Shown piece by piece: positions 2 through 39,343 of a DNA stretch of 39,343 nt. Made by a program: the position numbers and the translations under genes. The stretch's first letter is position 1. Each line of letters opens with the position of its first letter. Source of the stretch: Pseudomonadota bacterium (lineage in GTDB: Bacteria; Pseudomonadota; Alphaproteobacteria; SP197); contig JBCCIS010000049.1 of the NCBI GenBank assembly GCA_039028155.1, forward strand, positions 1 through 39,343. Direction: 5' to 3'. The notes under the pieces are model-generated. The model saw only the letters and a list, made by a program, of their open reading frames with translations. It was not told the DNA's origin and did no database searches.

Positions 2-1231
2 CTGGCCGGCGTCATCATCATGATCCTGGTCAACCTATCCGGCAGACCAAGCGTCAAGTACGGCGTGCCCTACCCCGTCATGGCCCGCGCCAGCATGGGC
101 GTCTTCGGCGCCAAATTCGTGGCCATGTTGCGCTGCATCGTCGCGATTTTTTGGTACGGCGCGCAGACCTATGTTGGCTCGACAGCCGTCGCGTTGCTGC
201 TTCGAACCGTGTTCGGCACCGATGGCGGCGGACCGTTCCTTGGCTTGAGCCCGGTCGACTGGATCTCGCTTTTCCTGGTCAGCCTGTTCCAGATCGCGCT
301 CTTCTGGCGCGGCATTGAATCGATCCGCGTTTTCCTGAATTGGGCGGGACCGGCCGTCTATGCCGTCATGCTGACGCTGCTCGCCATCCTGTGGGTCAAG
401 GCCGGAAGCGGATTGTTGTCGGAAGTCGGCACCATCTTTGAGGGCATCGGACACTATGAGGCCGGCCCGGTCTCCGCATTCATGGCGATCACCGGCACCA
501 TGATCGCGTTTGTGGCGCCGCTGATCGTGAACTACGGCGACTTCTCCCGCTATGTCAGCACGCAAAGCGGCATGAAGCTCGGCAACCTGCTCGGGCTGCC
601 GCTGACGATCGCGTTCTTCGCGCTCATCGCCTTGTTCGTCACCGGCGGCACGGTCGTCGTCTTTGGCGAGCGCCTGACCAACCCGACGGAAATCGTTGGC
701 CGCGTCGACAATCTGGCGCTGACCGTCGTCGCGGCCTTGACGTTTTTTGTCGCCACTGTCGGCATCAACGTGGTCGGTAACTTTGTGCCGCCCGCCAACG
801 ATCTATCCAATCTCCTGCCGAGCCGTATCAGCTTCCGCACCGGCGGTTTGATCACGGCCTTTCTGGCCTTCTTCGTTAGTGCGCTTTGGGTATCGCTGAT
901 CAGCCAGTTCGGGATTGTCAAGTTCGTCAGCACACTCGGCGCGCTTATGGCGCCGGCCTACGGCATTTTGATCGCGGACTACTACCTGGTGAGGCGACAG
1001 CGGCTCGATATCCAGCAGCTCTTCTCGAGCGATGCGAATGGCGCCTACTTCTACAAGGGCGGCTGGAACCACAGAGCGTTGGTCGTCTTCGCGCCTGTGG
1101 CGGTGTTCGCGGTCCTCACCGTCTGGCTGCCGCAACTTGCCTTTCTTGCCGGTTTCGATTGGCTGATCGGCGCGCTGCTGGCCGGCGTACTCTACTATGG
1201 CGTCATGCCAAAGGTGAGTGGGAGCCGTTAA
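2..1231 (+). CDS. NCS1-family permease (nucleobase/allantoin/hydantoin type), 5' end cut by the window
   Basis: Inner-membrane cation symporter of the NCS1 family, which imports purines, pyrimidines, allantoin, hydantoins or thiamine precursors. The reading frame is open from base 2, so the first transmembrane helices lie outside the window and the first ATG at 20 is internal. The visible part starts in a typical NCS1 segment (SGRPSVKYGVPYPV, then ARASMG) and continues with about ten hydrophobic helices, a PPANDLSNL segment and a final helix pair ending VLYYGVMP. The gene converges on betA and the two stop codons overlap by 4 bp (1228-1231). The substrate cannot be read from the sequence. A nitrogen-rich ring compound is the family expectation; proximity to the urease 10 kb away is weak support for a ureide. 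Confidence 0.9.
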   Translation: MAGVIIMILVNLSGRPSVKYGVPYPVMARASMGVFGAKFVAMLRCIVAIFWYGAQTYVGSTAVALLLRTVFGTDGGGPFLGLSPVDWISLFLVSLFQIALFWRGIESIRVFLNWAGPAVYAVMLTLLAILWVKAGSGLLSEVGTIFEGIGHYEAGPVSAFMAITGTMIAFVAPLIVNYGDFSRYVSTQSGMKLGNLLGLPLTIAFFALIALFVTGGTVVVFGERLTNPTEIVGRVDNLALTVVAALTFFVATVGINVVGNFVPPANDLSNLLPSRISFRTGGLITAFLAFFVSALWVSLISQFGIVKFVSTLGALMAPAYGILIADYYLVRRQRLDIQQLFSSDANGAYFYKGGWNHRALVVFAPVAVFAVLTVWLPQLAFLAGFDWLIGALLAGVLYYGVMPKVSGSR

Positions 1232-2892
1232 CGCGCCTGCCGGTCAGCCGCGGCCGGATCGTCCGACCCGAACCAGTCCGCGTTGGACGGCGCCGGCGGC
1301 TCGCGGTCCAGGATCATGTCGGCGGCCTTTTCGCCGATCATCATGGTCGGCGCGTTCAGGTTGCCCGACGGAATCGACGGGATGATGGCGCTGTCGGCGA
1401 CGCGCAGGCCTTCGATGCCGTGTACCCGGCATTCAGGGTCGACGACCGCCATGGCGTCCGTACCCATCTTGCACGTGCCACAGGGGTGATAAGCGCTCTC
1501 GGCGGTCTCGCGGATCAACTGGTCGATCGCCTCATCGCTGCGGGTACTTGCCCAGGGCTCTTCTTCCGCGCCACGGTAGGGATCGAACGCGCGCTGTGCG
1601 ATGACGTCGCGGGCCTGGTGCACGCAGGCGCGCATGTCGTCGAGATCGGTGGGATCGTCGAAGAAGTTGAAGTCGATCAGCGGTCGTTCGTCCGGATCGG
1701 CCGACGCCAGACGCACCGTACCGCGGCTTCTCTCACGCAAGGTGCCGACGCAGACGCAGAACCCCGATCGTTTCGTACTGGCGCCCCAACCTTCCAGCAG
1801 GAAAGGGAAGAAGTGGTACTGGATGTCGGGATGCGGTTGGTCGGGCGCCGAACGCGTGAAGGCGCCGACCTCGACCTGGTTCGACGCGCAGATACCGTCA
1901 TGCGACAGAAACCAGCGCGCGCCGGCCATGACCTTGTTGATCGGCTTGGCATGCCGGTTAAGCGCGTGCGCGTGGCCGGTTCCCCACTGCATGTGGACCT
2001 CCAGATGGTCCTGCAGGTTGCCGCCGACACCGGGCAGATCATGGACGACGTCGATACCGTGTTCGCGCAGATGATCGGCGGGCCCGATGCCCGACAGCAT
2101 CAGAAGATGGGGCGAAGAAAAGGCGCTTGCCGCCAGTATGACCTCGCACTCGGCACGGATCGATTGCGCCTTGCCGCCAACAATGACCTCGACGCCGACG
2201 GCGCGTCGGCCCTCGGTCGCGACGCGCCGGGTCACCGCGCCCGTCAGAACGGTCAGGTTCGGCCGCGAGCGCACCGGCCCTATAAAAGCGTGCGCCGTGC
2301 TTGCCCTCACCCCTTTGTCGATGTTCATGTCGAACGGCCCGAACCCTTCCTGCTGGTAGCCGTTGACGTCGTCGGTCAGCGGAAAGCCGGCCTCGCCGCC
2401 GGCCTCGACAAAGGCCCGGTTCAGCGGCAGCCGCGTGCCGTGGTGTGTCGTCGCGAGCGGGCCCGAACCGCCGCGCCAGGCATCCTCGCCCCGGCTGCTG
2501 CGCTCGGATCTCTTGAAGTAAGGCAGCACGTCGGCATAGGCCCAGCCCGCCGCGCCCTCTGCCGCCCAGCGTTGGTAATCGAGCGCGTGGCCGCGGATAT
2601 AGGCCATGCCGTTGATCGATGACGAACCGCCCAAAACCTTCCCGCGCGGCTGATAGATGCGCCGGTCCGCAAGGTTCTTCTGCGGGACCGAATAGTAGGA
2701 CCAGTTATAGGGCCCGCCCGTGAAGTTCTCGCCATAGCCTGCCGGCATGCGGATCGACCAATGTTTCGCCTCGCCGCCGGCTTCAAGCAGCAGAACGCGC
2801 ACGTCCGGTTCCTCCGAGAGCCGCGCCGCCAGCACGCCGCCGCCCGAACCGGCGCCGACAATGATGTAATCGTATGTCCCGTCGACCGTCAT
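1228..2892 (-). CDS. betA: GMC-family FAD oxidoreductase, choline dehydrogenase type
   Basis: Oxidises an alcohol to the aldehyde with FAD; for true BetA this is choline to betaine aldehyde at the membrane. The 554 residues match BetA length. The dinucleotide fold is at the N-terminus (GAGSGGG, residues 13-19, then E37). GMC signature 1 lies around 84-101 (KVLGGSSSINGMAY) and the C-terminal catalytic pair is H469 (HPCGTCKMG) and the SGNLNAPT asparagines at 511-513. The ATG overlaps the betC stop by 4 bp, so the two are translationally coupled: sulfatase first, dehydrogenase second. No betI or betB is next to it, unlike the rhizobial betICBA operon. GMC enzymes are diverse, so the substrate rests on the betC neighbour. 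Confidence 0.88.
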   Translation of the reverse strand: MTVDGTYDYIIVGAGSGGGVLAARLSEEPDVRVLLLEAGGEAKHWSIRMPAGYGENFTGGPYNWSYYSVPQKNLADRRIYQPRGKVLGGSSSINGMAYIRGHALDYQRWAAEGAAGWAYADVLPYFKRSERSSRGEDAWRGGSGPLATTHHGTRLPLNRAFVEAGGEAGFPLTDDVNGYQQEGFGPFDMNIDKGVRASTAHAFIGPVRSRPNLTVLTGAVTRRVATEGRRAVGVEVIVGGKAQSIRAECEVILAASAFSSPHLLMLSGIGPADHLREHGIDVVHDLPGVGGNLQDHLEVHMQWGTGHAHALNRHAKPINKVMAGARWFLSHDGICASNQVEVGAFTRSAPDQPHPDIQYHFFPFLLEGWGASTKRSGFCVCVGTLRERSRGTVRLASADPDERPLIDFNFFDDPTDLDDMRACVHQARDVIAQRAFDPYRGAEEEPWASTRSDEAIDQLIRETAESAYHPCGTCKMGTDAMAVVDPECRVHGIEGLRVADSAIIPSIPSGNLNAPTMMIGEKAADMILDREPPAPSNADWFGSDDPAAADRQAR

Positions 2893-4427
2893 GACGGTTC
2901 GTGCTGCTGATCACTCCATTCCGTCGAATAGATGCCCTGCACGTCCTCGACCATGCGCACGTATTGCCGCGCGGCGTCGCGCTGGGGCTGCCAGTCCCAC
3001 GGCGTGCGGTGTCCAGTGTTGAGCGCGCGCGACAGGAACAGCCGCACTTGCTGGCTCGCCTCGACATCGGCCCTCAGCGCCTCGCGGTCCCACTGCTTCA
3101 AGACCTCGTCGGCCAGCTCGGCTTCGACCTGGGCGGTCTCGGCGTTGCCGGCAAGGTTGGTCAACTCATCGGGATCAGCTTCGAGGTCATAAAGGACCGG
3201 CGGATCACCGTCGCCCGCGATGTACTTCCAGCGGCCCCGGCGCACCATGAACATCGGCCCGGGCGTGCCCTCGCCGCAGTATTCGCTGAACGCCGTGTCG
3301 TGCCAGTCACGCGTGTTACCGGCCAGAAGGCCGTTGAGGCCGCCGCCGTCGATCGGCGCCACGAGGTCGGGCATCTCTCCGTCGCCCGCCCATTCCAAGA
3401 ATGTCGGGAAGAGATCGATCAGCGATGTGTTCTGGCTGACGCGCCTGGCTTGGAACATCTTGGGCGCATAGACGATCATCGGTACGCGCGCGGACCATTC
3501 GAAGAAGCTCATTTTGAACCACAGGCCGCGCTCGCCGAGCATGTCGCCGTGGTCGCCGGACAAGACGATAATCGTGTTGTCGGCAACGCCGATCGCCTCC
3601 AGCGTCTCCACGATGCGGCCGATGCGGTCGTCGAGCCAGGTCATGACCGCGTAATAGGCGCGCCGCGCGCGGCGAACGTCTACCGGCGACACCGCCTCCA
3701 TATGCCGGCCGGTAATGGTAAAGAGTCGGCGACTGTGGGCGTCGCGTTCGTCAAGATCCATGTCCGGCACCTTCGGATCGTCGATCTCGTCATCGGCGTA
3801 CATGCTCCAGTAGGGATCGGGTGCCAGATAGGGATCGTGCGGGCTGATGAACGAGGCGGTCAGGAAGAACGGCTTGCCGTCATTGCGGTCGGCATGGTCG
3901 TGCAGCCAGCGGCAGGCTTCGACCGTGACCTCTTCGTCATAGTCGATGTTGACGCTGCGCCGCCACGGACCGGCATCCAGCACGGCGCGCATGCTGTGAT
4001 ACCAGGGCACCCAGACGTCCGACCCGATCGACCAGTCCGTGGTCCAGGAAAAGTCAGCGGGATAGACGTCGGTCGTCACCCGTTCCTCGAAACCATGCAG
4101 CTGGTCGGCGCCGACGAAGTGCATCTTGCCCGACAGGCATGTGGCGTAACCCATGTCGCGCAGATAGTGCGCAAAGGTCGGTACCGAGGAGGCGAACTCG
4201 CTGGCGTTGTCATAGGCGCCGATCCGGCTGGGTAGCCGGCTGGCCATGAACGAAAAGCGGGCGGGCGCGCAGATCGGATAGTTGGTGTAGGCACTTTCGA
4301 ATACGACGCCACCTTCGGCTAAGCGGTCGATATTCGGCGTTCGACAGACCTTGCCGCCATAGGCCTGGAGCACCTGAGGCGCGAGCTGATCGGCCATCAG
4401 ATAGAGAATGTTGGGTCGTTGCGTCAT
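2889..4427 (-). CDS. betC: Choline-sulfatase (type I sulfatase)
   Basis: Predicted to hydrolyse choline-O-sulfate to choline and sulfate in the cytoplasm; there is no signal peptide. The formylglycine motif C-x-P-x-R is CAPAR at 53-57, with metal-site residues near D13 and in GDHGD (291-295), and SGKMHF near 99-104. The C-terminal tail (RTPWDWQPQRDA) matches the choline-sulfatase C-terminal domain rather than generic arylsulfatases. Its 512 residues are the usual BetC length. It is the first gene of a betC-betA pair whose product would feed the downstream dehydrogenase. An 80-bp spacer (4428-4507) separates it from a divergent FAD oxidase, so both may share a regulatory region. The formylglycine-generating enzyme is not in the window. 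Confidence 0.92.
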   Translation of the reverse strand: MTQRPNILYLMADQLAPQVLQAYGGKVCRTPNIDRLAEGGVVFESAYTNYPICAPARFSFMASRLPSRIGAYDNASEFASSVPTFAHYLRDMGYATCLSGKMHFVGADQLHGFEERVTTDVYPADFSWTTDWSIGSDVWVPWYHSMRAVLDAGPWRRSVNIDYDEEVTVEACRWLHDHADRNDGKPFFLTASFISPHDPYLAPDPYWSMYADDEIDDPKVPDMDLDERDAHSRRLFTITGRHMEAVSPVDVRRARRAYYAVMTWLDDRIGRIVETLEAIGVADNTIIVLSGDHGDMLGERGLWFKMSFFEWSARVPMIVYAPKMFQARRVSQNTSLIDLFPTFLEWAGDGEMPDLVAPIDGGGLNGLLAGNTRDWHDTAFSEYCGEGTPGPMFMVRRGRWKYIAGDGDPPVLYDLEADPDELTNLAGNAETAQVEAELADEVLKQWDREALRADVEASQQVRLFLSRALNTGHRTPWDWQPQRDAARQYVRMVEDVQGIYSTEWSDQQHEPS

Positions 4428-4507
4428 GCCGCCTCCTTGACCACGATGGCGTCTGGCATGACGCCGCTTGTGCAGACTAGACTAGCGCTCATGATCGGGA
4501 AATCGTC

Positions 4508-5797
4508 GTGACTCTGCCGGACAGTCTTTGGTCCGCAAGCGCCGTCAGCACTACGGAGACGCCCGTCCTGGCCGGCCGACACGGTGCGGACGTGGTGGTG
4601 GTCGGCGGCGGCTTCACCGGCCTGTCGGCGGCGCTGCACCTGGCGGAAGCGGGCAAGTCGGTCATGGTACTGGAGGCAGACGAGCCGGGCTGGGGTGCGT
4701 CGGGTCGCAATGGCGGTCAGGTCAACCCGGGCTGGCGCATGCTGCCCTCGGAGATCGCCGAGAAGTACGGCAGCAACCGGGCGCCCGCCGTGCTCGATAT
4801 GCTGAACCGAGCCTGCGATCTGACCTTCGATCTGATCGAACGCCACGGTCTCGACTGCGACGCCGAACGGCCCGGTTTCGTGCACGCGGGCTTCGGCCGC
4901 TTCGGCAAGGATTTTCTGGACAGCTGGATCGCCGAATGGGGCGAGCTCGGCGTCAAGGTCGAGCGTTTCGACAGCGCTGGCTTGAAACGCCTGATCGGCA
5001 CCGACTTCTACCACCTGGGCATGCTCGACCCACGCGGGGGCCACCTGCAGCCCCTGTCCTATGCGCGGGAACTGGCCCGCGCGGCCGCCGCCAAGGGCGC
5101 GCGGATTCACGGCCATTCGCGGGTGACGTCGATCCATGAGCAAGGCGCCGGCTGGCGCGTCATGACGTCCGGCGGCGAGGTCGAGACCGAACACGTCATC
5201 CTATGCACCAATGGCTATACGGACGGCTCCTGGCCCGGCCTTGCCAAGACCGTGGTGCCGATCACGACCTTCGTTGCCGCGAGCGAACCGCTGGACGCGG
5301 CAAGGCTCGAAACGATCCTGCCCGGGCGCCACGCGGTCGCCGAGACCCGGCGCGCGCTCCACTACTTCAAGCTCGACCGCGACAACCGCTTCGTCATCGG
5401 CGGGCGCGGCAACTTCACCAACCTGAACGAGCCGGGCTCGGTCGAGCACCTCAAGGCGACAGCACTGGAGATCTTTCCGGCACTGGATGGCATAGGTTGG
5501 TCCTACCGTTGGGGTGGCCAGGTTGCCGTCACGCCCGACCACACGCCACGCCTCTTCAAACTGGCGACCAACGTCCACGCCGGCATGGGCTTCAATGGCC
5601 GCGGCGTAGCCATGGGATCAATGTTCGGCACACAGCTGACCCGGGTCGTCCTGGGCGAGGAACCGGACATGCCGGTTGAACCGATCGACATCATTCCCAA
5701 CCACGCGTTCCGCCAGTTCGGCATCACCTGGTTCCTGGCGACCAGCCGGCTGCTCGACCGGCGCGACATCCGCGAAGACCCCGCAACCTTTGTTTAG
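4508..5797 (+). CDS. FAD-dependent amine/D-amino-acid oxidase (DAO family)
   Basis: A 429-residue flavoprotein of the DAO superfamily (gamma-glutamylputrescine oxidase, sarcosine or dimethylglycine oxidase relatives), expected to oxidise a C-N bond to an imine. The FAD fold is at 30-56 (GGGFTG, then E56), followed by GWGASGRNGGQ, a segment typical of PuuB/OrdL-type members. The C-terminal FAD contact is HAGMGFNGRGVAMG. GTG at 4508 is used because the upstream ATG at 4491 is in another frame and stops at once. It diverges from betC and ends 4 bp into the stop of the convergent LysR gene. Next to choline catabolism, a methylated glycine or a polyamine derivative is a reasonable substrate guess, but no residue proves it. 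Confidence 0.88.
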   Translation: MTLPDSLWSASAVSTTETPVLAGRHGADVVVVGGGFTGLSAALHLAEAGKSVMVLEADEPGWGASGRNGGQVNPGWRMLPSEIAEKYGSNRAPAVLDMLNRACDLTFDLIERHGLDCDAERPGFVHAGFGRFGKDFLDSWIAEWGELGVKVERFDSAGLKRLIGTDFYHLGMLDPRGGHLQPLSYARELARAAAAKGARIHGHSRVTSIHEQGAGWRVMTSGGEVETEHVILCTNGYTDGSWPGLAKTVVPITTFVAASEPLDAARLETILPGRHAVAETRRALHYFKLDRDNRFVIGGRGNFTNLNEPGSVEHLKATALEIFPALDGIGWSYRWGGQVAVTPDHTPRLFKLATNVHAGMGFNGRGVAMGSMFGTQLTRVVLGEEPDMPVEPIDIIPNHAFRQFGITWFLATSRLLDRRDIREDPATFV

Positions 5798-7084: not shown

Positions 7085-8635
7085 TTAGTCGTCGGCCGTG
7101 GCGCCGCCCTCTTCCTTGCGCCTGGCGATAAAGCCGGTCAGTTCTTCACGAATGGCCGGGTCCATCGGCGGCTCCTCGTATTCGTCCAGAAGCTGTTTCC
7201 AGATGCGGTGTGCGCGTTGTGTTGCGTCGACCGCGCCGTCCTGATGCCAGGTCTCCCAGTTGCGCCAGTCCGACAGGATCGGCTGGTAGAACGCATTCTC
7301 GTAGCGCGCCAGGGTGTGCTGGGCGCCGAAATAGTGGCCGCCGGGACCAACCTCGCGCATGGCGTCGAGGCCCAGCTCGTCTCTTGAGAAATCCACCGGC
7401 TCCAATGCCTTCATCATCGTCTGGACCATCTCCAGATCGATGACGATCTTCTCGAACGAGGCACGCAAGCCGCCCTCCAGCCAGCCAAAGCTGTGCAACA
7501 GCATGTTAGTGTGTCCCAGGACCGTCGCCCATAGCGACATCGCGCCTTCATAGGTCGCCTGGGCGTCCGGCCAGTTCGACGCGTTCACGTTCGACGAGCG
7601 GTAAGGCAGCCGGTAGCGGCGCGCCAATTGACCGCCGATCAAGGCCGCCTTGACGTATTCCGGCGTGCCGAAGGCCGGCGCGCCCGAACGCATGTCGACA
7701 TTGCTGGTGAACCCGCCATAGATCACTGGCGCGCCCGGATTGACGATCTGCATGAAGGTGATGCCGGCGAGCGCCTCGGCGTTCTGCTGGGTCAAGGCGC
7801 CGGCGATCGAGACCGGCGCCATGGCACCGGCAAGGGTAAACGGCGTCACGACCACCGGCTGGTTGCGCCGCGCCATTTCGATCATGCCGATCAGCATGGG
7901 GATATCGAGCTGCAGCGGCGAATTGGCGTTGACCACCGTCCACATGCTAGGCTCATTGAGCAGCGTGGCCTCGTCAACGCCGCGCGCGATCCTGACCATC
8001 TCCAACGCGTCCAGGATCTTACGCCGGCCGAGCGCGTAGCCGAATGCGATCTTGTCGGTGATCAAAAGCTGCTCGCCGACGATATCGAGATAACGGATGT
8101 TGGGCTCGACATCGATTGGCTCCAGCATCGGCGTGCAGCCGTGGATCGCGTTGATCACCTGGCCGAGCTTCAGCAGGTCGCGGTAGTCGGCCAGGTTGCC
8201 GCTCCTGCGGCCGCCCTCGATGTCGGAAATGTTGGGGTTGCCGGCAACCGGCAGGAAATTGATGTAGTTGCCGCCGAAGATACGGTGCCGATCGGGGTTA
8301 CGGGCGTGAAGCGTGAACTCCCCCGGCGCCTTGGCGACCATCTCTTCGACCATGGCCCGCTCGAAGCGAACGCGCGTGCTGTCGGGGTCCACATCGGCGC
8401 CGGCCGCCTTCAGGATGTCCCGCGCTTCGTCCAGCAGGAAGTTAATGCCGATCTCCTGCAAGACCTCCAATGAGGCATCGTGGACCGCCTCGATCTCATC
8501 GGCGCTGGCCAACTCGAACGGCGGATAGGGATTGCGGACGGTTTGCCAGTCAAGCTGCGGCAGGCGCGACGGTTTGCCACCGCCGCCCCTCTTGCGCCGG
8601 CCCGCCGACGATGCCGTCTTGTCGCGTCGCGCCAT
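7085..8635 (-). CDS. Trimethylamine methyltransferase (MttB) superfamily protein, non-pyrrolysine type
   Basis: A 516-residue MttB-family TIM-barrel methyltransferase (COG5598 type). The family transfers a methyl group from a quaternary or tertiary amine to a corrinoid protein; the best-known non-pyrrolysine member is the glycine betaine methyltransferase MtgB of Desulfitobacterium. Recognisable stretches are the N-terminal RLPQLDWQTVRNPYPP, the ASLEVLQEIGINFL helix, and the barrel segments GGNYINFLPVAGNPN and GAPVIYGGFTSNVDMRSG. The frame has no in-frame amber codon, so pyrrolysine is not used. The first 25 residues are basic and low-complexity (KRGGGGK). No corrinoid protein or methylcorrinoid:folate transferase is in the window, so the acceptor must be encoded elsewhere. 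A GAGAG sequence 4 bases before the ATG is a weak ribosome site. Confidence 0.88.
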   Translation of the reverse strand: MARRDKTASSAGRRKRGGGGKPSRLPQLDWQTVRNPYPPFELASADEIEAVHDASLEVLQEIGINFLLDEARDILKAAGADVDPDSTRVRFERAMVEEMVAKAPGEFTLHARNPDRHRIFGGNYINFLPVAGNPNISDIEGGRRSGNLADYRDLLKLGQVINAIHGCTPMLEPIDVEPNIRYLDIVGEQLLITDKIAFGYALGRRKILDALEMVRIARGVDEATLLNEPSMWTVVNANSPLQLDIPMLIGMIEMARRNQPVVVTPFTLAGAMAPVSIAGALTQQNAEALAGITFMQIVNPGAPVIYGGFTSNVDMRSGAPAFGTPEYVKAALIGGQLARRYRLPYRSSNVNASNWPDAQATYEGAMSLWATVLGHTNMLLHSFGWLEGGLRASFEKIVIDLEMVQTMMKALEPVDFSRDELGLDAMREVGPGGHYFGAQHTLARYENAFYQPILSDWRNWETWHQDGAVDATQRAHRIWKQLLDEYEEPPMDPAIREELTGFIARRKEEGGATADD

Positions 8636-11669: not shown

Positions 11670-13379
11670 TCATCTGAGCATGTAGAGCTGGGCCAGCGCC
11701 AAACGGTCAACCGGATCGCACCACGCCCGTTCGCCATCGACCGTGACGTCGAAGGTCTGGTTGTCGACCGCAATCGCTGGCAGCGCGTCGTTCAGATGCA
11801 TCGACGCCTTGGACAAGTTCCGCGTGCCGGAGAGCGGCAGCAGCATGCGACCAAGATCCAGCCTGCCCGCCAGGTCGCCGTCGATGGCGCTGGGATGAAC
11901 GAAGGTCGCCGAGACCGCCTGTGGCGCATGACCGTGGGCGCCCCATTGCTCACGCAAGATGACGGGGTCGGCGGCGGCAATGCTGGCGGCTGAATCACCC
12001 ATCGCGGCCCAGGCCGTGAAGCCGCCCTTGATCACGACGCTCGGCTTGATGCCGAAGAAGGCGGGTTTCCACAAAACGATATCGGCCAGCTTGCCCGTCT
12101 CCAGCGAGCCGATATGACGGTCGATGCCGAACACGCGGGCCGCGTTGATCGTGTACTTGGCGAGGTAACGCATGATGCGCCTGTTGTCGGCGCCCGCGAT
12201 CAGCTCATCCGCCAGCGCGCCACGCTGATCGCGCATCTTGCTCGCCAACTGCCAGCAACGCGCGACGACCTCGTTGATGCGCCCCATGCCCTGGCTGTCG
12301 GAACCAAACATGGAGATCGCGCCGATGTCGTGCAAGATGTCCTCGGCGGCGATTGTCTGCGCGCGGATCCGGCTTTCAGCGAACGCGACATCCTCCGGCA
12401 CGTGCGGACTCAGGTGATGCACGGTCATCGTCATGTCGAGGTGTTCGTCGAACGTGTTCAGCGTGAACGGGTTGGTCGGGTTGGTCGACGACGGCAGACA
12501 GTTCGCTTCGCCGTTGCAGCGGATGATGTCGGGCGCATGGCCGCCGCCGGCGCCTTCGGTGTGGTACATGTGAATGGCGCGCCCGCCGATCGCCGCCATG
12601 GTGCTTTCGTAGAATCCCGCCTCGTTCAGCGTGTCGGTGTGGATCTGGACCTGGAAGTCCATGTCGTCGGCGACCGACAGGCAGCAGTCGATGGTCGCCG
12701 GCATGGCGCCATAGTCCTCGTGGATCTTAACGCCGATCGCGCCGCCGGCGATGTGGGCGCGGATGCCGTCGGGATCATGGCAACTGCCGCGGGTCAGGAA
12801 ACCGAAGTTCATCGCCATGGCGTCGCTTGCCTTCAGCATGTTGCCGGTTGTCCAGTCACCGCCGGAATCGACGCCGAATAGAATGCCGTGGCCACCGCCG
12901 ATCATGGTCGTCAGGCCGGCCGACAATGCGTGGCGGATCAATGCCGGGCTCTTGTGATGCACATGCACGTCAATCCCGCCTGGCGTCGCGATCATACCGT
13001 CGCCATGGGCGACCAGGGTCGCCGGACCGCAGACCAGGTCGGGGTGAACACCGTCCATGACCGCCGGATTTCCTGCCTTGCCGAGCCCGACGATGCGGCC
13101 CTCGCGAACGCCCAGATCGCCTTTCACGATGCCCAGGATCGGGTCCATGACGAGCACGTTGTGCACGACGAGATCAAGCGCGCCGTCGGCTTGACTGTGG
13201 CTTGCCTGGAAACCCATGGCGTCGCGGAACGATTTTCCACCACCTGTGGTGAGTTCTTCGCCGGGTACGCCGTGGTCATGCTCGACCTCGGCGACCAGAG
13301 ACGTGTTGGCAAGCCGCACCCGGTCACCCTTGGTCGGCCCGTACATGGCGGCATAGGCCGCCCGTGTCATCGTTGCCAT
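11670..13379 (-). CDS. ureC: Divergent urease alpha subunit (UreC-like)
   Basis: Catalytic subunit of urease or a urease-like amidohydrolase, 569 residues with the start at 13379, where [13 protein letters not shown] aligns with the UreC N-terminus and GGAG lies 9 bases upstream. All nickel-site residues are present: H139, H141, the carbamylated-lysine position K218 (VKIHED), H220, H247 (HTDTLNE), H273 ([10 protein letters not shown]) and D361 (GSDSQGMGR), with H321 in the flap. The flap cysteine of classical ureases (Cys319 in Klebsiella, before His-His-Leu) is valine here (V320). The segment after the first metal motif (HVHHKSP) also departs from the classical one. It follows the gamma/beta fusion by 4 bp. 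No ureD, E, F or G gene is in the window. The substrate is presumed urea but not certain. Confidence 0.9.
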
Positions 13380-13383
13380 CGCC

Positions 13384-14085
13384 CTACGCTCCGTTGAAAC
13401 CGCGATCGCGCGCCCGGTCCAGCGCCGCCGCACGGGTGTCGGCATCGTGGACCGAACCATTGGTCAGGTTGTTGAAGCCGGAGACCAAACCGTCGCCTCC
13501 GATCGCGACAAGGGCGACATCGCGGGCCTGCCCTGGCTCGAACCGCTGCGCGGTGCCAGAGGGGATGTCGAGGCGCATGCCGAACGCTGCTTCGCGGTCG
13601 AACGACAGCGCCGGGTTGACCTCGAAGAAGTGGAAGTGGCTGCCGACTTGCACCGGCCGGTCGCCGGTGTTCAGCACGCTGACTGTCGCCTTGTCGCGTC
13701 CGACGTTCAGTTCGATATCGCCGTCGGGTGTCACGATCTCGCCGGCGCGCGCGTCGTTGCCGTCGGCAATCGCCGCGCCTCCCGGACGGATGGGATCGTG
13801 CACGGTGATCAGTTTGGCGCCATCGGGGAACAGACCTTCGACCATGATGACCGGCAGCAGGCGGGTGACGCCAGGCAGCACGTCGTCGGTGGTCAGCAGC
13901 GTCGCGCCCCAACCCATCAGGTCCTTGACCGAGCGGCCCTCGCGCGCGCCTTCCAGCAGCGCGTCGGCGATATAGGCGTGGGCCTCCGGATGATTAAGCT
14001 TTAGGCCCTTCTCCTTGCGCCGGCGCGCCATCTCGGCGGCGACAAAGATCGTCATGCGCTCCAACTCGGTCGGTGTCAGCATCAT
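13384..14085 (-). CDS. ureAB: Urease gamma/beta fusion subunit
   Basis: A 233-residue fusion of the two small urease subunits, as in Helicobacter UreA and the second urease locus of some actinobacteria. Residues 1-100 are the gamma part ([20 protein letters not shown], then [17 protein letters not shown]). Residues 105-225 are the beta part ([38 protein letters not shown]). Two consecutive ATG codons can start it; GGGAG lies about 10 bases upstream. It is the first gene of a two-gene unit with the alpha subunit 4 bp downstream, and diverges from a PhyH dioxygenase across a very short spacer (14086-14147). Confidence 0.92.
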
Positions 14086-21159: not shown

Positions 21160-22098
21160 TCAGGAACCGCCGGCCATCGCCTCGTCGACAAACGGCTGCC
21201 AGTAGTCTTGGTTGCCATCAACCCACTCGCTGATGACGACCTCCAGATCCTCGCCGTCATTGTCGATGCGGCCCATCAGCTCCTCCTGAATCTGGTTGTT
21301 CAGGTGGTAGGTGTTGACGAAACGCCAGGCTGCCGGCCACTTCTCTTCCATGCCGGGCCAGGCCGACTTGAAGACGCGCGGCTTTTGCAGGCTGTACTCG
21401 TTGACAACATCCTCGGGCATCTCAACCCAACCGTAGTCATGGGCAAAGAGGACCCAGTGAGGCGCCCAGAACATCATGACCAACGGTGACTGACGCTCGA
21501 CCGCGCTGTTCAGCTCGGCCACCAGTGCGCCTTCGCTGCCGGCGGGAATGGCGACAAACGGAATGCCGGTGCCCTCGATGATCTGCTCGGAGCGGTTGCT
21601 CCAGTCAGCCGGATAGGAAACCAGGCGACCATCGGGCAGCGTCTCGGGCGTCGCGAACAGATCGGAGCAGCCCAGGAACGCATCCCAATCGGGCAGACCG
21701 GGACAAAGCTCTTCAACATGCTTGGGGTAGAGCCAGCCCTCGCGCGCGTCGAGACCCAGATCGCCGACGTCGGCGACGCTGCCGTCGTCGAGCTTGCTGG
21801 GGAAGTACTCTCCCAGATTGTTGTCCCACAACTCCATGCCCAGATGGATCTGGCCGTCGGCGATGGCGTTCGCCATCGGCAACACCGCCGCGGTCACGTA
21901 TTCTACCTTGTAGCCCATACGCTCAAGGATCTGGCCGGCGATGTGCGCTGAAATGTGCTGACCGGTCCACTCGTTGATACCGATAACGATCGGCTCATCG
22001 GATTCCGGTACACTCTGCGCCTCGGCACCGGTCGCAAGACCGATGGCGAGCGCGACGCCGGCCATGGCGCCGAGGAGTTTTCTTCCCAACGAACCCAT
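21160..22098 (-). CDS. Glycine betaine/choline-type ABC solute-binding protein (OpuAC/ProX family)
   Basis: Periplasmic binding protein for quaternary amines. The start at 22098 is set by GGGAGG 7 bases upstream; the longer frame to 22191 is not needed. Residues 1-28 are a Sec signal peptide (GRKLLGAMAGVALAIGL, cleavage near AEAQ). The mature part shows the OpuAC pattern: IVIGINEWTGQHISAHIAGQ, MGYKVEYV, a tryptophan-bearing MELWDNN motif and VMMFWAPHWVLFAHD near the C-terminal lobe. It has 312 residues. No cognate permease or ATPase is next to it. Its aromatic residues could form the usual cation-pi cage, so betaine, choline, carnitine or a related osmolyte is the likely ligand. Confidence 0.9.
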   Translation of the reverse strand: MGSLGRKLLGAMAGVALAIGLATGAEAQSVPESDEPIVIGINEWTGQHISAHIAGQILERMGYKVEYVTAAVLPMANAIADGQIHLGMELWDNNLGEYFPSKLDDGSVADVGDLGLDAREGWLYPKHVEELCPGLPDWDAFLGCSDLFATPETLPDGRLVSYPADWSNRSEQIIEGTGIPFVAIPAGSEGALVAELNSAVERQSPLVMMFWAPHWVLFAHDYGWVEMPEDVVNEYSLQKPRVFKSAWPGMEEKWPAAWRFVNTYHLNNQIQEELMGRIDNDGEDLEVVISEWVDGNQDYWQPFVDEAMAGGS

Positions 22099-22232
22099 TA
22101 CAGAACCTCCCTTTTTGATTGAGTCACTTCTTTGTGCGATCGCCCGCTCAATACACCTGCTGCGGGCGCGACGTGGGCATATTCTAAGCACGGGAAACCG
22201 GAATCAGGAACCCCGGCGCAAGAAACACCGGT

Positions 22233-36958: not shown

Positions 36959-37912
36959 TTGGACTTCCTCAATCTTCTGCTGCCTATCTTCGCCATCATC
37001 CTGACCGGCTTTGTCGTCTCGCACTTCAAGCTCCTGCCAGAGACGGTCGGCGATATCCTTATCCAGTTCGCCTACAACATCGGCCTGCCCGCCCTCTTGT
37101 TCCTGGTGATTGCCCAGGAGTCGCTGGCCCGGCTTTTCGATCCTGGTTTTCTTCTGAGCTATGGCGGCGGCACGTTCTTCTTCTTCGTGCTGATCCTGGT
37201 GCTCACCAAAGTCTGGCGCAAAGTGTCGACCGGCGATGCGGTGATCCTGGCACTTATCGGCGCCTGCGCGAACACGGCCTTTGTCGCCCTGCCGATCCTC
37301 AAATCCACCTTCGGGCACAAAGCCGTTCTGCCGGCGGCCATGGCCTGCGTGATCATGGTGGCGATGATCCTGGTCGGCGTGCTGTTGATCGAACGAACCC
37401 GGCGCGGCGATGACGCCGGAGAGGACTCGATCTGGCCGCATGTGCGCCATGCCCTCTTGAACCCGCTGGTGCTCGCCGTGTTGCTGGGTGTTCTTTATGC
37501 GGCCGTGGGCTTGCCGGTACCGGTCATGGCGGCCGAGTACCTGTCACTGCTGGGCGACTCCGTGACCCCTTGCGCCCTGTTCGCGGTCGGTATGTCAATC
37601 CGGCTGCAGAGCCTGAGGACGGGTGCGGCGGCGATCCTGCTGCTCTCGGCCGTCAAGCTGATCGTCATCCCAGCCCTCGTGCTTTTCCTGGTTCTGCTGC
37701 TCAACCTCGATCCCTTCCTCTCGGTCGCCGCCGTCATTTGCGCCGCCGTCCCGACGGCAAAGACGATCTTCGTGCTGGCCAGCCAATACGACCACAAGAA
37801 GGAACTGGCGGCTGAAACCGTATCGGTGGGCACGCTCGCATCAACCGCCACGCTCTTCGTCTGGCTCATCGTCCTGGCGCAGTTCTATCCCGATACCTTC
37901 GGCGCGTCGTGA
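36959..37912 (+). CDS. AEC-family transporter (auxin efflux carrier-like permease)
   Basis: A ten-helix inner-membrane protein of 317 residues in the AEC family, whose bacterial members carry malate, malonate or other small acids. The TTG start follows an in-frame TAG by one codon, so no earlier start exists in this frame; GGAG lies 8 bases upstream. Family landmarks are NIGLPALLFLVIAQ, GACANTAFVALPIL and the second-half SVTPCALFAVGMSI and AAVPTAKTIFVLASQY, showing the inverted 5+5 helix repeat. It converges on the DddP-like gene with a 9-bp gap. Confidence 0.9.
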   Translation: MDFLNLLLPIFAIILTGFVVSHFKLLPETVGDILIQFAYNIGLPALLFLVIAQESLARLFDPGFLLSYGGGTFFFFVLILVLTKVWRKVSTGDAVILALIGACANTAFVALPILKSTFGHKAVLPAAMACVIMVAMILVGVLLIERTRRGDDAGEDSIWPHVRHALLNPLVLAVLLGVLYAAVGLPVPVMAAEYLSLLGDSVTPCALFAVGMSIRLQSLRTGAAAILLLSAVKLIVIPALVLFLVLLLNLDPFLSVAAVICAAVPTAKTIFVLASQYDHKKELAAETVSVGTLASTATLFVWLIVLAQFYPDTFGAS

Positions 37913-37921
37913 CCTGACGCG

Positions 37922-39169
37922 CTAGACGTCTTCCCAGGGAAAACTATCCAGCCGTTCTGCGCCGGTGTTGGTCACCAGGACCTGGGTCTCCAGTTTGATG
38001 CACTCGCTGCCTTCCTCGCCGATCAGGCTTTCGACGCAGACCGTCATGTTCTCCTCGAAGTGGCCGTCATAGCCGTGCTCGAAGTCGGGATGCAGCAACA
38101 CCACCGGCCACTCGTCAGCCATGCCAACACCGTGGATGGCGAGCGAATAACGGTAGGGCTGGTGTTTCTCAGGAATACGCCAGGACTTCTCATTGAACTC
38201 GGCGAACGAGACACCGGCTTTGACCAGCGTCAGGTTATGGTCGATCTGCTCGCGCGCGGTCAGGTAGAGCTCGCGCTGGCGGTTGGTCATCGCGACGTGG
38301 CCGCAGGTCCATGAGCGCGAGAGATCGGCGCAATAGCCATAGGGCCCGATCATATCGGTGTCGAAGCTGATCATGTCGCCTTCCCGGCAGACATAGTCTG
38401 AGCACTCGGCGTACCAGGGGTTGGTGTGCGGACCGGCCAGCAACAGCCGGGTCTCCAGCCAGCCACCGCCGGAGCGCGCGTTCTCGTGGTGCAGCTCGGC
38501 CCAGATCTCCTGTTCCGTGCGCCCGGGCTCGGACACCTCATACATGCGCGCCATGCCGGCTTCGCAGACACGGACCGTCCATCGCATCAGGTCGATCTCG
38601 TCGGCGCTTTTGATCGCGCGCGCGCGTTCGGTCAGCTCCTGCCCCTCGACATAGGTGTAGCCGAGGTCCTCCAGCGCCTTCAGGCCGGGCGGCTCGATCT
38701 TGTCAATCGCCAGGCGCCGGTTGCCGCCGCCATGGGCGCGCATGAGGTTATCGACCTCGCCGGCCCAGTGTTTCAGCCGTTCGTCGCTGCGGTCGCCCGC
38801 CGCCATATAGATCCACGACGTCGCCCGGCGCACCTCATCAACCGCCGCGACATCATCGCTCAGGTGTTCGGCATCCTTGAACTCGAACAGCACGGCAGGG
38901 CCATCGGCAAAGACCAGCGCGTAGCGCACGGCGTTGTGCAGCGCCCAAAGCTGCATGTTCGTGACATCGAGCGCATAGTGAATGTTGACGGGGTCATAGA
39001 GCAGGATCGCCGCGCAATCGTGACGCGCGAGCTGACCGCGCAACCGGCCAAGGCGATAGGCACGGGCGGCTTCCAGTGTCGAGGCGGGCAGTGGGCTCTT
39101 GAGCGGCTTGTCAGCGCCCTCTTCGTTCAGATAGGTCGCCTTGCGCGGATCCTTGAAGACCTCGGCCAT
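37922..39169 (-). CDS. dddP: M24-family protein of the DddP (DMSP lyase)-like group
   Basis: A 415-residue pita-bread-fold protein. It keeps the full M24 metal set (D270, D272, D282, H346, E380, E394). It also keeps the two residues reported as special to DddP DMSP lyases: Y341, five residues before the metal histidine, and D352 in HGVGMADEW. DddP-specific blocks are visible too: DPVNIHYALDVTNMQLW, GGGWLETRLLLAGPHTNPW and ISFDTDMIGPYGYCADLSRSW. DddP splits dimethylsulfoniopropionate into acrylate and dimethyl sulfide. The N-terminus is shorter than in Roseovarius DddP. ATG 39169 is preferred over TTG 39178, which overlaps the upstream stop. A divergent clade with another substrate is possible. 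Confidence 0.8.
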   Translation of the reverse strand: MAEVFKDPRKATYLNEEGADKPLKSPLPASTLEAARAYRLGRLRGQLARHDCAAILLYDPVNIHYALDVTNMQLWALHNAVRYALVFADGPAVLFEFKDAEHLSDDVAAVDEVRRATSWIYMAAGDRSDERLKHWAGEVDNLMRAHGGGNRRLAIDKIEPPGLKALEDLGYTYVEGQELTERARAIKSADEIDLMRWTVRVCEAGMARMYEVSEPGRTEQEIWAELHHENARSGGGWLETRLLLAGPHTNPWYAECSDYVCREGDMISFDTDMIGPYGYCADLSRSWTCGHVAMTNRQRELYLTAREQIDHNLTLVKAGVSFAEFNEKSWRIPEKHQPYRYSLAIHGVGMADEWPVVLLHPDFEHGYDGHFEENMTVCVESLIGEEGSECIKLETQVLVTNTGAERLDSFPWEDV

Positions 39170-39174
39170 GGCGC

Positions 39175-39343
39175 TCAACCCGCCCTGCCGTAGAAGCCGA
39201 TGCGTTCGGCCTCGCTGAACATGACACCGGCGTCCTCGTAATAGGAGAAGACAGCGATGATGCGATCGCGATCGCCTTCGACCGGTGTCACCCGGTGCGC
39301 GGTGTTCTTGCCCTTGAAGACATTCAGCGTGCCCGGCGCCAGC
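39175..39343 (-). CDS. C-terminal fragment of a 2OG-Fe(II) oxygenase (HalD/BesD-like tail), cut by the window
   Basis: An open frame enters from the window edge and ends with TGA at 39175, giving 55 residues. The sequence LNVFKGKNTAHRVTPVEGDR, then IIAVFSYYEDAGVMFSE and GFYGR, matches the distal histidine-arginine region of the 2OG oxygenases that end FYGR. The visible His is the third iron ligand and the Arg shortly after it the probable 2-oxoglutarate contact. It lies just upstream of the DddP-like gene and is probably co-transcribed with it. The N-terminal metal motif is outside the window. Confidence 0.7.
   Translation of the reverse strand, partial: LAPGTLNVFKGKNTAHRVTPVEGDRDRIIAVFSYYEDAGVMFSEAERIGFYGRAG

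Follow-up and report, generated by a model that had tools for sequence, protein, structure and literature searches.

A DddP-like M24 protein encoded next to a HalD-like oxygenase as a candidate enzyme of betaine catabolism in an alphaproteobacterium

We analysed a stretch of alphaproteobacterial DNA of 39,343 nucleotides (below, the window), which is the entire contig C49 of a 5.3-Mb assembly in 118 contigs (G000). An unbroken open reading frame at 37922-39169 on the minus strand, from ATG to stop, encodes a DddP-like M24 enzyme of 415 amino acids. Membership in the M24 (pita-bread) superfamily follows from the Pfam model Peptidase_M24 (96.9 bits, gathering score 23). The top solved relatives by sequence in a search of PDB are RdDddP (4b28, E-value 3.6e-93, 40-42% identity) and RlDddP (4rzy). 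An AlphaFold2 model (mean pLDDT 90.9) matches both in Foldseek with TM 0.89, and prolidases, creatinase and ectoine hydrolase (EutD/DoeA) with lower TM, about 0.65-0.75. In the alignment to RlDddP the metal ligands are complete (D270, D272, D282, H346, E380, E394), and Y341 and D352 correspond to Y366 and D377 of RlDddP. Thus the original prediction of a DddP-like M24 gene that keeps this Tyr and Asp together with the full metal set is confirmed, down to the residue numbers Y341, D352 and H346, and the structural model it had proposed as a check does resemble RlDddP.

The original prediction also placed an AEC permease and a partial HalD-like oxygenase beside this gene, and both are present. 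The AEC carrier (36959-37912, plus strand; PF03547, 114.7 bits) is convergent and lies 9 bp from the M24 stop codon. On the other side, the C-terminal 55 residues of a HalD-like HxD Fe(II)/2OG oxygenase are encoded at 39175-39343 on the minus strand, cut by the contig end. Taken alone, this piece gives 21.1 bits with the Pfam model HalD, below the cut-off of 26. However, the window end shares an identical overlap of 141 bases with another contig of the assembly (C90). Joining the two contigs yields a full-length oxygenase of 262 amino acids, and thus its partial state is an effect of the assembly. The completed gene lies upstream of the M24 gene on the same strand and stops 5 bp before its ATG, so that M24 is the second gene of an oxygenase-M24 pair.

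The HxD triad of the oxygenase (H154, D156, H223) is kept in all 22 aligned HalD-like rows, and the partner at locus L010 exceeds the Pfam HalD cut-off (57.8 vs 26 bits). The model of the oxygenase from locus L009 (mean pLDDT 95.7) has HalB, BesD and a lysine hydroxylase as its nearest folds, the best TM being 0.69 with the latter. In halogenases of the BesD/HalD family, the Asp/Glu of the triad is replaced by Gly or Ala (HxG/A). The partner gene belongs to the same fold group but, unlike the halogenases, keeps HxD, with H154 and D156 invariant in the 22 rows, and a halogenase reading is thus ruled out. The BesD-family enzymes nearest to the model take lysine, ornithine or related amino acids in free form as substrates, so an amino-acid-like substrate would fit and C-hydroxylation is also possible.

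Further upstream, C90 carries a co-oriented gene for a protein of 404 amino acids that resembles another M24 protein. It has no match in NCBIfam at E <= 1e-10; its counterpart in L009 gives a match of 40-45 bits to M24 references. Farther on this contig lie cupin, TauD-like, LysR and Rieske genes, the C90 labels (cupin, TauD-like, prolidase-like) being assigned partly by eye. In another genome (G040, L176:7420-10163), a close HalD-like gene (55%), accompanied by a divergently oriented LysR gene but by no M24, is followed by a gene resembling, by eye, a polar amino-acid binding protein, a hint at the substrate class of the oxygenase.

The Tyr and Asp of the M24 protein had been considered diagnostic for DddP lyases, and DMSP cleavage had been suggested. 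The scores, the trees and the residues themselves do not support this. The NCBIfam DddP model NF043017 gives 402.6 bits, below its equivalog cut-off of 600. Of 250 genomes of the class chosen as a sample, 240 were searched with this model; 79 match and 4 exceed the cut-off. In a tree of 122 rows, built without duplicate loci of the query and paralogs, L007, L127, and ORFs below 150 bits or 330 columns, the window M24 lies inside a clade of 84 rows (SH-aLRT 100; the query clade). A second tree, of 52 rows, excludes the outgroups, 64 rows of the query clade, both L123 rows and L064_13372. In it the query clade (20 rows) and the DddP clade (six rows: RdDddP, RlDddP, L099, L100 and two L044 copies) are separate, each with support 100/100. 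Constraining them together in this second tree, in which none of the six DddP rows is a validated divergent protein of the fungal or Oceanimonas kind, costs 79.5 log units and is rejected (p-AU 0.0008). Thus phylogeny, which the original prediction had named as a test of its own claim, places the window M24 outside the DddP clade.

Tyr at the position of Y366 is found in all 119 aligned DddP-like rows (DddP 6/6, intermediate 9/9, query clade 84/84, other 20/20), and Asp at the position of D377 in 118 of them (6/6, 9/9, 84/84 and 19/20, respectively). Since both are common to all DddP-like subfamilies examined, the pair is a mark of the DddP-like group and not of activity as a DMSP lyase, and was ruled out as a diagnostic. 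The D307 position holds Asn in one query-clade row. Trp occurs at the position of W75, which is Trp95 of DddP, in 115/119 rows; each row of the alignment begins with the earliest start codon of its ORF, so that some carry extra N-terminal residues. Four positions set the query clade apart from DddP: F278 is replaced by Tyr in 80/84 rows (Y253 in the window), R258 by Ser in 84/84 (S233), C376 by Ala in 80/84 (A351), and D422 by Thr in 82/84 (T395). The Phe is retained in four rows forming one basal subclade (L017, L115, L116, L126); MttB or DMGDH-like genes lie near three of these, and near the fourth no tested neighbour class was found.

Thus, by the tests run, the window protein is not a member of DddP; it may act like DddP on another onium compound. 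The M24 fold, six metal ligands, Tyr366, Asp377, His371 and Trp95 are shared with DddP, whereas the clade, the score and the four substituted residues differ, and oxygenase or demethylase neighbours are conserved in the relatives of the window M24. Of the original prediction the observation stands and the inference of DMSP cleavage does not; its side suggestion of a new substrate was the better one.

The neighbourhood was analysed in the best 80 of 140 relatives (63-96% identity), with genes called by simple ORF scores without curation. A HalD-like gene is found near M24 at 42 of these loci and a Rieske oxygenase with a reductase at 27, never both at one locus; three more have MttB, Bmt/corrinoid or DMGDH-like genes. 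A HalD-like, Rieske, MttB, Bmt, corrinoid or DMGDH-like gene occurs within 2.7 kb at 72/80 loci and beyond 3.5 kb at 4/80, a contrast biased by the fact that the classes were drawn from genes seen near M24. Eight loci (L012, L015, L016, L019, L025, L041, L068, L069) have no tested partner nearby, which counts against the association. All 27 Rieske loci are from Rhizobium or Rhizobiales; the split between Rieske and HalD-like partners tracks taxonomy and thus reflects few independent events. Distances of the partners correlate with those of M24 (HalD-like, r = 0.71, 42 loci; Rieske, r = 0.62, 27), as do distances of LysR (r = 0.90, 29) and the reductase (r = 0.67, 27). None of 2000 permutations gave correlations as high; shared descent alone can produce such values.

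Among 40 further loci, a core neighbour class is present at 3/5 loci of the query clade, 2/5 loci at 554-592 bits, 10/26 others, and 0/4 loci over the DddP cut-off, where none of the tested classes was found. The remaining two query-clade loci lack a tested partner and again count against the association. The class sample of 240 genomes contains 45 HalD-like rows in 28 genomes, seven of them beside a DddP-like M24 (six places, as the query's gene is split over two contigs); strong matches in G040, G185 and G196 are not beside M24, which argues against obligate pairing.

A blastp search (E <= 1e-5) of the flanks of the 80 loci gave no relative of the AEC carrier, which thus looks incidental. 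It likewise gave none for the YghX-like gene of the window, and one for the PhyH gene (79%, in L009). Of the two neighbours that the original prediction called not typical for dddP loci, the oxygenase is no oddity, as it recurs beside M24 in the relatives.

The closest solved structures to the Rieske proteins of the relatives are of the stachydrine-demethylase type (4qup, named 'demethylase'; 3vca). Thus in Rhizobium M24 follows a Rieske-reductase pair like that of stachydrine demethylase and glycine betaine monooxygenase operons; however, these Rieske proteins score below the GbcA cut-off (410 vs 670 bits). At L017, a betaine-homocysteine methyltransferase exceeds its cut-off (498.5 vs 338 bits). 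By sequence similarity, then, M24 of the relatives appears beside known types of betaine-demethylating enzymes, the gene linked to the window copy being that of the putative HalD-like oxygenase. We know of no M24 component in the known demethylase systems, and no M24 enzyme of betaine catabolism was met in a search of titles and abstract openings, in which subscription journals are poorly covered.

Similar contexts were seen on plasmids, where 262 records have a match and contexts were examined for seven. In Rhizobium anhuiense (query clade) the order is LysR, Rieske, reductase, M24, followed by a convergent regulator, 4-hydroxyproline epimerase and a glycine-betaine-type ABC transporter; genes for formaldehyde detoxification are found at a distance of about 11 kb. 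In Terrarubrum (query clade) soxBDAG, FAD oxidoreductase, DUF1289, bmt, MttB, MR/MLE and M24 lie on a single strand. The copies examined at 55-38% identity (Pseudomonas, Paraburkholderia, Parasedimentitalea, Alisedimentitalea, S. meliloti) have Rieske, FAD oxidoreductase, MttB, sarcosine oxidase, diiron desaturase-like oxygenase or glycine betaine transporter genes nearby.

We propose, with a probability of about 0.5, that the window M24 is the second of the enzymes encoded by an oxygenase-M24 operon and would cleave a C-N bond in an N-methylated zwitterion or its oxidised product, and that it is not a dedicated DMSP lyase. The betaine part of this proposal, taken alone, seems somewhat more probable than the whole. 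The substrate would be an amino-acid betaine or a related quaternary ammonium carboxylate. The upstream oxygenase would oxidise it, most likely by N-demethylation, which is favoured by analogy, as Rieske, MttB and betaine-homocysteine methyltransferase genes replace the oxygenase elsewhere. In DddP, according to the accessible text of PMC5395565, the carboxylate is bound to iron, the sulfonium packs against a Trp and a Tyr, and an Asp is the base. Similarly, the two-metal centre of the window M24 (the six ligands listed above) would bind the carboxylate of the betaine or its oxidised product, the onium group would pack against the candidate residues W75 and Y341, and D352 would act as the base. 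The C-N bond would be broken in a nitrogen counterpart of the C-S elimination of DMSP by DddP. We infer the substrate, the order of steps and the bond cleaved from two facts: several unrelated demethylating or oxidising enzymes occur beside one M24, with an N-methylated zwitterion as the simplest common factor, and the residues of the DddP mechanism are kept.

A broader possibility, put forward tentatively, is that nitrogen-betaine cleavage lies at the root of the DddP-like M24 superfamily and DddP is its sulfur-specialised branch. The query clade would then represent a new two-part system of marine alphaproteobacteria and legume rhizobia, consisting of an oxidative (2OG/Rieske) or corrinoid demethylase and a two-metal C-N-cleaving M24.

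The strongest competing explanation is that the protein is a true DMSP (or DMSOP) lyase which has diverged, and that its gene lies near betaine genes because DMSP enters by the same transporters. The fold, the conserved ligands with Tyr and Asp, and the identity to RdDddP agree with it, and divergent lyases do exist: in the accessible parts of the respective articles, FgDddP, 32% identical to RdDddP, made DMS in E. coli (PMC4108388), and a DddP from a scallop symbiont, which branches independently, is active (PMC10989825). However, we consider it unlikely given the position outside the DddP clade, the score below the cut-off, the four pocket changes, neighbours unlike those of loci over the cut-off, and many relatives in soil Rhizobium. 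In addition, no AcuI over its cut-off was found in the genome (best 112 vs 297 bits), but this is weak evidence, since some dddD strains also have no AcuI, as stated in the available portion of PMC3338564.

Less probable still is a creatinase- or ectoine-hydrolase-like C-N hydrolase acting on some other amidine or amide, unrelated to betaines. M24 does include such non-peptidase branches, and Foldseek matches creatinase and EutD/DoeA at TM about 0.7; however, the ectoine hydrolase models score weakly (32 vs 575 and 21 vs 613 bits), the residues kept are those of the DddP type, and the demethylase neighbours would be left unexplained. Similarly improbable is an Xaa-Pro dipeptidase or aminopeptidase, as in public annotation (plasmid records read 'Xaa-Pro peptidase family protein'): the M24 fold and family-5 solute-binding proteins near some members (a class including peptide binders) are consistent with it, but both active-site His of 2zsg are replaced, here by Tyr253 and Asp352 (alignment, by eye), no peptidase model attains its cut-off, and RlDddP, which also has Asp there, showed no measurable Val-Pro activity in the accessible text of PMC5395565.

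The rest of the window fits an organism using quaternary amines. A GMC oxidoreductase gene adjoins a sulfatase with a choline-sulfatase C-terminal domain (1228-5194, minus strand), and the pair possibly serves choline-O-sulfate use. An MttB (trimethylamine methyltransferase) family gene (7085-8635, minus strand) and one for an OpuAC-type glycine betaine binding protein (21160-22191, minus strand) also contribute to this picture. The MttB gene is one of 15 in the genome, in our impression an unusually large set for one bacterium. A 596-residue protein encoded at 11670-13460 (minus strand) matches the Urease_alpha N-terminal domain and Amidohydro_1. The genome has three more DddP-like genes (47, 45 and 38% identity).

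More specific substrates were considered. The MR/MLE neighbours could have been hydroxyproline-betaine epimerases, but the one of S. meliloti matches 2pgw and that of Terrarubrum 4dye/2oqh; thus proline betaine is not named as the substrate. An aromatic-amino-acid-lyase family gene follows M24 at 6/80 loci (L039:9388-10872 and five others); the best solved match is ergothionase (6s7j), and Ala-Ser-Asp is found, by eye, at the expected MIO triad of the L039-type lyase. A hut cluster is present at 4/80 loci. Histidine or ergothioneine is thus a possible substrate but was not adopted, as the loci outside these six and four have neither. No close copy of the window M24 was found on the four plasmids pRL9, pRL10, pRL11 and pRL12 of Rhizobium leguminosarum 3841, from which we take strain J391 to descend. 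Hence J391, a DMS-negative host in the text available from PMC10686828, was dropped as evidence.

Dimethyl sulfide, released by the enzymes that the window M24 resembles, is a climate gas, and dddP accounts for about 65% of all ddd genes in ocean data, according to the same part of PMC10686828. In one published survey of genomes, E < 1e-70 was the threshold for accepting a protein as DddP, as given in the accessible text of PMC5395565. With 3.6e-93 to RdDddP, a value from the PDB search that varies with database size, the window M24 and its rhizobial relatives would probably be counted as DMSP lyases at this threshold. A DMS-gene label for the window gene is probably wrong, as the gene belongs to a sister family whose neighbours indicate breakdown of nitrogen osmolytes (betaines). 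If the clade acts on betaines, the potential for DMS is overestimated and a nitrogen-osmolyte pathway underestimated; the clade also offers a testable route to the origin of a DMSP lyase. Some intermediate 'DddP' genes just under the cut-off may also not be DMSP lyases.

Two loci hold such genes just under the DddP cut-off, at 570 and 592 bits (L163:10748-13388 and L160:4672-8724), beside a Rieske oxygenase and a DMGDH-like gene. At another locus (L171:4854-19501, G086:C7), five DddP-like M24 genes, MttB and MR/MLE lie within 15 kb.
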